Assembly: GCF_025128055.1 (NCBI RefSeq)
Contig: NZ_JAHLYS010000039.1
Location: 1 to 35,997 of the forward strand
Source of the DNA: Synechococcus sp. CS-1329
Lineage (GTDB): Bacteria; Cyanobacteriota; Cyanobacteriia; PCC-6307; Cyanobiaceae
Length of the DNA: 35,997 bases
Reading direction: 5' to 3'
The position numbers and the translations under genes were made by a program. Position 1 is the first letter of the stretch. Every line of letters starts with the position of its first letter. The notes below the pieces were generated by a model. That model was not told where the DNA came from. It worked only from the letters and a program-made list of their open reading frames with translations, and did no database searches. Of this stretch, positions 27,742-30,355 are shown piece after piece.

Positions 27742-28425
27742 ATGGAACTTCACGCCGACCTCGCCCAGCGGGTGGTGCTCGACACCACGGCCCTCCCCTG
27801 GACCCCATCGCCGATGGCCGGGGTGGATCGACGAATGTTGGATCGCCTCGGTGGAGAAGTGGCCCGGGCCACCTCGACCGTGAGTTATGCCGCAGGCAGC
27901 CGATTCGAGTGCCACAGCCATAGCGGGGGTGAGGAGATCCTGGTGCTGCAGGGCACCTTCTCCGATGAACAGGGCCACTACCCATCCGGGACGTATCTGC
28001 GCAACCCGGCCGGCTCCGCCCATGCCCCGTTCAGCGAGGACGGTTGCACTCTCCTGGTGAAGCTGCATCAGATGCATCCGCTCGATCAGGCGACGGTGGT
28101 GATCGACACCCGCAGCAGCGACTGGTTGCCTGGTCTGGTGGCTGGCTTGCAGGTGCTTCCGCTGCACGCCTTCGGCTCCGAGCATGTGGCCCTGGTGCGC
28201 TGGGCGCCGGGTACGCGCTTCCAGCTCCATGGGCATCCTGGCGGCGAAGAAATCTTTGTGCTGGATGGAGTCTTTCAGGACGAGCAAGGCAACTATCCCG
28301 CCGGCAGCTGGCTGCGCAATCCCCACGCCAGCTCGCACTGTCCCTGGAGTGAGGCTGGCTGCACGATTTGGGTGAAGACCGGCCACCTGCCGAAGACCCT
28401 GGCCCCTGATGGCCTCGAAGGGTGA
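27742..28425 (+). CDS. Tandem ChrR-like cupin protein
   Basis: A 227-residue protein of two homologous cupin domains. Domain 1 has HSHSGGEEILVL with His58, His60 and Glu64, and His94 in GSAHAPFSE. Domain 2 has HGHPGGEEIFVLDG with His163, His165 and Glu169, and His199 in SSHCPWSE. Both quartets have the spacing of the metal-binding ligands of the ChrR cupin (His-x-His-x3-Glu-x29-His). In ChrR this domain responds to singlet oxygen, but its zinc anti-sigma domain is absent here. A stress-sensing or small-molecule role is inferred. The upstream region is an IS5 remnant, so its promoter may lie within IS-derived DNA. No sigma factor gene is nearby. Confidence 0.85.
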   Translation: MELHADLAQRVVLDTTALPWTPSPMAGVDRRMLDRLGGEVARATSTVSYAAGSRFECHSHSGGEEILVLQGTFSDEQGHYPSGTYLRNPAGSAHAPFSEDGCTLLVKLHQMHPLDQATVVIDTRSSDWLPGLVAGLQVLPLHAFGSEHVALVRWAPGTRFQLHGHPGGEEIFVLDGVFQDEQGNYPAGSWLRNPHASSHCPWSEAGCTIWVKTGHLPKTLAPDGLEG

Positions 28426-28444
28426 ATCAGGGGGGTCTGTGACG

Positions 28445-29151
28445 ATGCCAAGTCAAGCTCGCTGGATTCCAGCAACAGCACGGCTCAGCACCAACCTGAT
28501 CACCAGTCTTATGGCCAGCCTGAGCACTGCTCTGGTCGCCAGCGTGCTGCTTCCCTGGGGAGGAGTGCCGGCGGCCTCTGCGGCGATGGTTCACCTGGCG
28601 GCAGCCTGTCGAGCACGGATCAAGGCCTTCGATTGGCAGGGCGCTGTGCAGCTCTGTAGCCAGGCGATCGAGAAGGATCCGAAGCTCACGGCTGCCTGGA
28701 TCGACCGTTGTCAGGCCAGCCTTTAACTCTCCAGGCTGAGCGAGGCGATGGCGGATCGCCGCCAAGCGATCCAGCTGGAGCCTGAGAACTCAGAAGCCTA
28801 TCTTCGCCTTGCCGATGTGAAAGCCATGTCTACGCCCGTTGACTACCCCAGTGCGCTGGAGACTTGCGCCAAGTTCATCGAGCTTGATCCAAAGGATGGA
28901 TCGGCCTACAGCAATCGTGGGGTCGCCAGGCATGCCCTCAATGATTACAGCGGGGGCCTGGCTGATTACAACAGGGCTATCGAGTGGAGCCCGCTGAGGT
29001 GCTCACCTACTGCAACCGCGGCGAAACACTGTTTCTGCTCGGGCAATCCCAGCTCCCCTGTGCCAGCTTCCGCCAGGGCCGTGCGCTCAAACCCGGCTTC
29101 ATCCCGTTGCCCGGGGATTTTGACGCCGCCTACCTCAAGGCCTGTCGCTGA
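28445..29151 (+). pseudogene. Secreted TPR-repeat protein, broken by one stop and one frameshift
   Basis: From the ATG at 28445 a signal peptide is followed by TPR-like text (AFDWQGAVQLCSQAIEKDPK, then AWIDRCQASL). A TAA interrupts at 28724-28726, and the same frame continues LSRLSEAMADRRQAIQLEPE, NSEAYLRLADVKAM and SAYSNRGVARHALNDYSGGL. Near 28983-28990 the frame shifts. The next frame reads VEPAEVLTYCNRGETLFLLG and RALKPGFIPLPGDFDAAYLK before TGA at 29149-29151. A single lost base in GAGGTGGAG would explain the shift. Repairing both lesions gives a protein of about 235 residues with at least four TPR units. Confidence 0.75.
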
Positions 29152-29560: not shown

Positions 29561-29770
29561 ATGCATGCTCATTCACTGGATCTACCCGAAGCCCTGAACC
29601 TGCTCGACTTAGATCAATTACCTGAGGATTTCGGGGAGCTTTCACGTCAGGTGGCCTGGCATCAGCCCGCCACCAAGCCATGGGGTAAAACCGAGACCCT
29701 GGCTTATCGGGTGGTCTGGCAGGCCGTCGAGCAGCACGTCGAGCATCTGGGCGAGAGCGTCAGCGGTTAA
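29561..29770 (+). CDS. Small acidic protein of unknown function
   Basis: A 69-residue soluble protein beginning MHAHSLDLPEALNLLDLDQL. It is acidic in the first half and ends QAVEQHVEHLGESVSG. The perfect AGGAGGT site 6 bases upstream is strong evidence that it is translated well. No family is recognised. Its last 11 bases overlap the end of the convergent TspO-like gene. The composition suggests a helical soluble protein; no signal peptide or membrane segment is present. Confidence 0.65.
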   Translation: MHAHSLDLPEALNLLDLDQLPEDFGELSRQVAWHQPATKPWGKTETLAYRVVWQAVEQHVEHLGESVSG

Positions 29771-30221
29771 GGCCCTCCATCCGCCAGGTCACGAAGCTGC
29801 CCACCGGGCTCCAGAGCAGGAAGGGGATCAGCAGCCATGCCGCTGGCCGCGACTGCTGCACCACCACCACCGCCAGGGCCACTCCCCAGGCCCAGCCCGC
29901 CAGGCCGATCACGGTGCCGTTGCGCAGGGTCCGGCTGCGGCAGATCAGCAAGGTGTAGCTCTGCACCAGCAGCACCAGCCCCAGATAGCCCGCCATCAGT
30001 GCCAGGCTGCTGCTGGCCTGCCACACCAGCAGGGCCGAGGCATAGAAACAGAGGTAGATCGCCAGCCAGATCGCCGGGATCCAGCGCTCGAAGGTCAGCC
30101 AGCGGGGGCGGCGCAGCTGCAGGAACCAGCGAAAATCGGCCTGGGACGGGTTGAGCAGGGCTCCAACCGCCACGATCACAGCCAGGATCACCAAGGCTGC
30201 CACCATCGTCAGTGCGTGCAT
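29760..30221 (-). CDS. TspO/MBR-family (tryptophan-rich sensory) membrane protein
   Basis: A 153-residue protein with five membrane segments, starting at the ATG at 30219-30221; a longer frame to 30284 lacks a good start. The text FRWFLQLRRPRWLTFERWIPAIW is like the TspO WxxLxKPxW region. The C-terminal AAWLLIPFLLWSPVGSFVTW plus final GLN matches the family's last segment. TspO proteins bind tetrapyrroles and affect stress responses in bacteria, which suits a cyanobacterium, but the binding residues are only partly conserved here. It overlaps the convergent small gene by 11 bases and is divergent from the alcohol dehydrogenase gene. Confidence 0.7.
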   Translation of the reverse strand: MHALTMVAALVILAVIVAVGALLNPSQADFRWFLQLRRPRWLTFERWIPAIWLAIYLCFYASALLVWQASSSLALMAGYLGLVLLVQSYTLLICRSRTLRNGTVIGLAGWAWGVALAVVVVQQSRPAAWLLIPFLLWSPVGSFVTWRMEGLNR

Positions 30222-30355
30222 CGAGTCCCCAGGCTGATGGTCCGGTGGCTGCAATCGCCACGCTCTCTCCAGGGCCGTCATCAATCCGTACGACCTGCCG
30301 CTGCAGCGCCTGTCCTGAAGACTGGGTTACGTTGACGCCACGCCGCTGAGGTCGG

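Follow-up and report, generated by a model that had tools for sequence, protein, structure and literature searches.

A stand-alone tandem cupin with two potential metal sites in Synechococcus sp. CS-1329 and its relatives in TetR-associated gene clusters

The gene and its product

The window analyzed here is the whole 35,997-nt stretch of contig NZ_JAHLYS010000039.1 from the cyanobacterium Synechococcus sp. CS-1329. It contains a gene coding for a tandem cupin (referred to below as the bicupin), which is found in a single copy in the 2.58-Mb genome (contig C38 of the assembly). The gene and its features are the following:

27742..28425, + strand: bicupin gene (ATG at 27742, stop codon at 28423-28425; 227 aa plus stop)
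27766..28074, + strand: N-terminal Cupin_7 domain (PF12973; 120.7 bits, cut-off 27)
27913..28023 (codons inside), + strand: first ligand quartet, His58, His60, Glu64, and His94 (pattern match)
28090..28389, + strand: C-terminal Cupin_7 domain (PF12973; 104 bits, cut-off 27)
28228..28338 (codons inside), + strand: second ligand quartet, His163, His165, Glu169, and His199 (pattern match)

The first-pass annotation had placed a tandem ChrR-like cupin here, with the correct coordinates, strand, and frame, and both halves of the product indeed score above the PF12973 cut-off. The protein has the same make-up as the one in PDB entry 3o14: about 220 residues in two Cupin_7-like halves and nothing else. 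Conservation with six relatives, whose starts were set at the aligned start codon, begins at Met1. Structure prediction from seven sequences, the other six of which are 75 to 91% identical to the window protein, yielded a mean pLDDT of only 34 and a pTM of 0.24, so the fold is assigned here by homology to 3o14. No sign of a viral origin was found, as phage records contained no match, viral contigs contained no confirmed match, and no PHROG was recognized.

A TPR-repeat gene lies directly 3' of the cupin gene (28376-29145, + strand). Judged against the 307-aa frame in the relative at locus L015, it carries an in-frame stop codon near 28724 and a change of frame near 28975, and is either a decaying gene or the result of an assembly error. 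About 1.3 kb downstream of the cupin, a TspO/MBR family gene occupies positions 29763-30284 on the - strand.

Conservation of the metal ligands

The window protein contains exactly two matches to the pattern H.H...E.{29}H, starting at residues 58 and 163. In the available part of the literature on ChrR, the zinc ligands of its cupin domain are given as His141, His143, Glu147, and His177 (PMC6852236), which is the very spacing seen at positions 58/60/64/94 and 163/165/169/199; the two perfect quartets with ChrR spacing reported in the initial inspection were thereby confirmed. Both are retained in 101 of the 102 intact, full-length, distinct sequences of the subfamily (fetched sequences at least 56% identical to the window protein), and so are not a product of chance. 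The sole exception is L107, in which His58 is replaced by Tyr. This count excludes exact duplicates, the repeat loci L021-L023 and L059, relatives of less than 50% identity, sequences of under 200 aa (L136-L139 and L147), and L093, a second copy in one genome that is interrupted by a stop codon. The window protein therefore has, at the sequence level, two potential His3Glu metal sites, and it probably binds metal. Comparison of the window gene with seven close relatives gave pN/pS values of 0.08 to 0.43 per half; the bicupin gene of the Synechococcus/Cyanobium family persists under purifying selection.

The same family also includes 122-aa single-cupin versions (L136:5013-5381, L139:4950-5318, and L137:1940-2308), in which the front of the N-terminal half is joined to the tail of the C-terminal half, as recombination between the repeats would give. 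Those at L136 and L139 retain one quartet, and the one at L137 retains none.

Comparison with ChrR

As far as the available part of the source goes, ChrR of Rhodobacter sphaeroides, an ECF11 anti-sigma factor (PDB 2q1z and 2z2s), shares the His-x-His-x3-Glu-x29-His spacing with the window protein but carries a single cupin-like domain behind a zinc-binding anti-sigma domain and pairs with sigma-E (PMC6852236). The window protein, in contrast, has two cupins, no anti-sigma domain, and no sigma partner. Its score against the ChrR model TIGR02451 (61.8 bits) falls below the cut-off of 124.5, and in the genome search the matches were limited to positions 115-190 and 127-187 of the 216 in the profile, so the N-terminal anti-sigma part is absent; no such domain appears among the Pfam matches either. 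The earlier remarks that the zinc-binding anti-sigma domain is missing and that no ECF sigma gene is nearby thus both hold, the window's contig having no match to sigma-70 region 2. The first reading was right that this is not a normal ChrR; it is not a ChrR at all.

Genome-wide, 11 matches to sigma region 2 were detected, none of them on the window's contig. Among the four weakest (L009-L012), one, L012, is of the ECF type, a 224-aa protein with only regions 2 and 4 according to Pfam. Its gene is overlapped at its end by an RskA-type anti-sigma gene, the two together lying at L012:1315-2708 on contig C32. A search for ECF sigma factors, which the first-pass annotation had proposed, thus did find one, albeit beside an RskA-type gene and not beside the cupin. 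The TIGR02451 profile found no ChrR above the cut-off anywhere in this genome. The suggestion that the protein is a detached singlet-oxygen sensor was not borne out: the sole ECF sigma factor identified already has an RskA-type partner, and such a role for the window protein is unlikely.

The 3o14 structure and the history of the two halves

A close homolog of the window protein has been solved as PDB 3o14 (E value of 1.8e-54), which presumably comes from Marinobacter. It is a 223-residue stand-alone tandem cupin that aligns over its whole length and has the first quartet, but its second half, as aligned, lacks one. The entry was deposited as “Anti-ECFsigma factor, ChrR.” Since the cupin pair aligns from residue 2, leaving no room for an anti-sigma domain, this name looks inherited from ChrR. 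The bicupin had been ranked among the least explained genes of the window; the existence of a solved homolog softens that statement, which still stands to the extent that no open-licence paper joining 3O14 and cupin was found.

The second quartet is missing from the 17 relatives with less than 50% identity, which (the fragmented L147 aside) have the first site only; L106, a distant second copy, has the second site only. A recent origin of the second site, by copying of the first half, was considered and rejected on the basis of a half-domain tree. In this quick tree, built from 119 columns and with long branches, the C-terminal halves of the two-site and one-site proteins group together, as do the N-terminal halves, each set being split off with an SH-aLRT of 100. 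Judged from this tree, the cupin duplication looks older than the split between two-site and one-site proteins, with site 2 apparently lost in the one-site group. Pairwise identities point the other way, with the C-terminal half of the window protein being 41% identical to the C-terminal half of L207 and 48% identical to its N-terminal half, a discrepancy that we attribute to rapid divergence of the degenerate halves.

Distribution and the window's own family

The nearest named relatives, with 91 to 92% protein identity, come from Synechococcus sp. WH 5701, Synechococcus sp. BSA11S, and a Cyanobium metagenome-assembled genome. At E values of up to 0.001, which include distant cupins, matches were found in 82 of 300 genomes of the family and in 31 of 292 genomes drawn from the phylum; at E values of up to 1e-30, they were found in 81 of 388 genomes drawn from the class. 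Some relatives (G148, G030, G037, G155, and G261) show four or five matches in each genome, with several of these being fragments, as if the gene were often duplicated and lost.

Within the window's own family (f1), small sets of close relatives share the local gene order. Apart from the cupin itself and a cluster seen in 10 loci, every protein cluster is limited to at most 7 of the 64 loci compared; the 10-locus cluster, which is encoded on the opposite strand and partly overlaps the cupin, is taken to be a spurious antisense frame. A tblastn search within 4 kb for the ten reference partner families described below found none near the window gene or in 45 of the 46 other f1 loci, so that a partner is present in only 1 of 47 (L119, counted here as f1; the loci are not one per genome). 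Searches of the window's genome found neither TetR nor OsmC matches (both run without a positive control genome) and no close SDR, the best one being only 32% identical to the SDR of the cyanobacterial cluster at L187. The window gene, then, is not located in a cluster of osmC, sdr, and tetR (plus dsbA, trx, and ahpD).

In the protein tree, which leaves out L028, L038, L040, L041, L047, and L149, L119 falls outside the main f1 group, beside L125 (support 94/87). This placement is compatible with two histories: the main f1 group lost the neighborhood, or it received the gene on its own. Copies from Pseudomonas plasmids adjoin the main f1 group, with weak support (88/99), which makes transfer of the bicupin between phyla possible.

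Gene neighborhoods in other cyanobacteria

Outside f1, the genomic surroundings are quite different. Ten reference proteins from four loci were used in tblastn searches within 4 kb, and at least one partner family was found in 34 of 41 non-f1 cyanobacterial loci. Of 40 control regions chosen arbitrarily from 29 of the genomes concerned, none had a partner. Setting aside the four reference loci changes the count to 30 of 37; seven of the 41 loci are free of partners. L147 and L106 were left out, and the 17 loci of less than 50% identity were counted apart (partner present in 7); related genomes in these counts are not independent samples. The 34 partner-bearing loci cover eight families (f5, f6, f9, f14, f15, f19, f23, and f26) and a Nostoc plasmid.

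Two arrangements recur. One is TetR-SDR-cupin, followed in some loci by OsmC. The other is glutathione S-transferase (GST)-PPOX flavoprotein-cupin, in many loci followed by a DSP-PTPase-like protein and DUF1348, with a divergent TetR gene. In a sample of 45 loci (the 41 non-f1 loci, L119, and three Pseudomonas plasmids), a partner lies on the same strand within 400 bp upstream of the cupin in 31 and downstream in 17, with a 4-bp overlap in 7 of these 17. TetR is the commonest partner, with 17 AcuR-like and 12 TetR_C_13_2-like matches in the 41 loci, the two sets overlapping. A single TetR cluster, present in 34 of 63 loci, merges at least two TetR subfamilies.

Plasmid copies

A tblastn search with E values of up to 1e-5 matched 305 plasmid records, most of which hold more distant relatives. 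On the Pseudomonas plasmid pWW0, the genes annotated as cupin, TetR, SDR, and OsmC stand in a row, the first two overlapping by 4 bp; pNAH7 and pWW53 have cupin-TetR-SDR. All three are, we assume, plasmids of Pseudomonas putida with a catabolic role. A Nostoc plasmid has GST-cupin with a TetR gene nearby. Several one-site relatives are found in the orders GST-cupin-TetR (Marinobacter), CMD-cupin-FAD oxidoreductase-gorA-SDR (Klebsiella), and SDR-CMD-cupin-FAD oxidoreductase (Pseudomonas and Acinetobacter). Another one is accompanied by MarR, an efflux pump, and, at a greater distance, a GST gene, and the remaining ones looked at have as neighbors a carbon starvation protein, an amidohydrolase, or a chemotaxis protein together with a hypothetical gene; one plasmid record of a one-site relative carries no annotation.

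Between L187 and pWW0, the TetR proteins share 37% identity, and the SDR of L187 is 66 to 67% identical to the cupin-linked SDRs of two Pseudomonas plasmids (66% for pWW0). The OsmC of L187 has no match to that of pWW0 at an E value of 1e-5, and the OsmC reference protein has no match at the pWW0 locus, so that the cyanobacterial and Pseudomonas clusters are tied by sequence only through TetR and SDR.

Relation to allicin-resistance clusters

The SDR of L187 is also 61% identical to the one near the Klebsiella cupin and 54% identical to the one in an E. coli plasmid cluster of the order OsmC-TetR-CMD-Trx-alkene reductase-DsbA-SDR; across the cupin-linked SDRs compared, identity to the latter is 54 to 64%. 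This E. coli cluster resembles published allicin-resistance regions and can be described as alt-like. In the available part of the allicin study, the resistance clones contain osmC, sdr, tetR, dsbA, and trx, and none of the transposon insertions found lay in osmC, sdr, or tetR (PMC7119367), so the importance of these three genes is not established there. The accessible part of the Pantoea work lists for the OVR-A region a FabG-type gene, a DsbA-like gene, nemA, and a thioredoxin-like gene, along with nemR, gor, osmC, and a gene of the carboxymuconolactone decarboxylase family (PMC5817063). By annotation, and within what these sources make available, the PfAR-1 regions have osmC, sdr, and tetR in common with the pWW0 cupin cluster. 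The available gene lists of PfAR-1 and Pantoea OVR-A/alt contain no cupin of the bicupin kind and, unlike the cupin clusters, have trx, dsbA, ahpD, and oye as other members. Membership of an allicin/thiosulfinate-type cluster is thus seen in part in pWW0 and the cyanobacterial relatives: some of the genes that make up those regions also accompany the cupin.

Predicted function

We consider it probable (about 0.6) that the bicupin is a metalloenzyme of TetR-associated modules for thiol, electrophile, or peroxide detoxification and that the window copy has lost these neighbors. Its two potential His3Glu sites would bind metal, and the protein would convert a reactive small molecule, be it an electrophile, a thiol-oxidizing sulfur compound, an organic hydroperoxide, or a product of one of these. 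In most of the non-f1 cyanobacterial loci examined, and on the Pseudomonas plasmids, the two-site protein is encoded by a structural gene of clusters that include TetR, an SDR reductase, OsmC, GST, a PPOX-type flavoprotein, or DUF1348, and the lone Synechococcus/Cyanobium copy presumably keeps the same chemistry as its clustered relatives. For a structural gene that is flanked by reductases and a peroxidase-like gene and stands next to a TetR regulator, an enzyme is likelier than a sensor. With none of the ten partner families near the window gene, and no TetR, OsmC, or close SDR found in its genome, this operon argument extends to the window protein only by homology. The detoxification role is predicted from genomic context, and enzymatic action, a thiol-reactive or peroxide substrate, and the same role for the lone copy are suggested by analogy with the clusters. 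The first-pass annotation had called a separated sensor or a scavenging enzyme plausible; the latter was the right direction, given the TetR, SDR, GST, PPOX-flavoprotein, OsmC, and DUF1348 genes around the relatives, and the former was not.

The bicupin might instead act on one catabolic substrate as a dioxygenase, lyase, or isomerase and stand among redox genes by accident. Such an enzyme would agree with the names of some of the plasmids (pWW0, pNAH7, and pWW53), with a weak match to the acetylacetone-cleaving enzyme 3bal (E value of 0.083), and with 30.1 bits against the model of (R)-mandelonitrile lyase, the cut-off of which is 140. However, no characterized cupin enzyme family was matched above its cut-off in Pfam or the other family models, PDB chains with enzyme names appeared in the profile search only as distant matches (E values of 0.05 or worse), and the varied partners (SDR, GST, PPOX, OsmC, and CMD) have a stress theme in common, not one pathway. 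We regard this alternative as unlikely, if still worth keeping in mind. A non-catalytic binder of a metal or ligand, such as a metal buffer or a co-sensor that modulates the linked TetR regulator, appears less probable yet. TetR proteins normally sense by themselves, and in all 47 f1 loci the protein is retained while neither TetR reference is matched within 4 kb; these facts speak against a co-sensor despite TetR being the commonest partner in the 41 loci and despite the sensing role that the available part of the source assigns to the ChrR cupin domain (PMC6852236).

It is very improbable that the bicupin acts as a stand-alone singlet-oxygen sensor or, in trans, as a ChrR-like anti-sigma factor devoid of its sigma-binding domain. 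The cyanobacterial host and the ChrR-like ligand spacing would suit both roles, but the anti-sigma domain is lacking, the identified ECF sigma gene is already paired, no sigma gene is annotated in the plasmid neighborhoods looked at, and the two-site protein is also encoded on plasmids of the non-phototrophic Pseudomonas.

Stand-alone tandem Cupin_7 proteins of the 3o14 type are a known kind, annotated in the relatives as “cupin domain-containing protein,” and no prior description of the genomic context reported here, of this bicupin family, or of its clusters was found in the open-licence literature, the range covered here. A broader proposal, which we put forward tentatively and with less than even confidence, is that the two-site cupins make up a new, widespread class of detoxification metalloenzymes, carried between phyla on plasmids, and left as a lone gene in Synechococcus and Cyanobium. 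Together with an SDR, OsmC, or GST, such bicupins would attack electrophiles, organic hydroperoxides, or thiol-reactive sulfur species. The gene order speaks for the view that the label “Anti-ECFsigma factor, ChrR,” carried by the closest solved structure, is misleading, and offers a concrete, testable role in its place. If the detoxification role is correct, bacteria have one more enzyme for responding to disulfide stress and electrophiles, cyanobacterial gene clusters are linked with plasmid-borne stress-tolerance clusters, and the question arises why a single member of the set has been retained in Synechococcus and Cyanobium.

Two further observations concern the plasmid-borne SDRs. The E. 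coli cluster (L256, NZ_AP022178.1, 16494-27261) is a block that lies between two IS5075-family elements, and SDRs of the L187 kind (E values of up to 1e-60 to the L187 protein) are found in 572 plasmid records, 263 of which are from Klebsiella.
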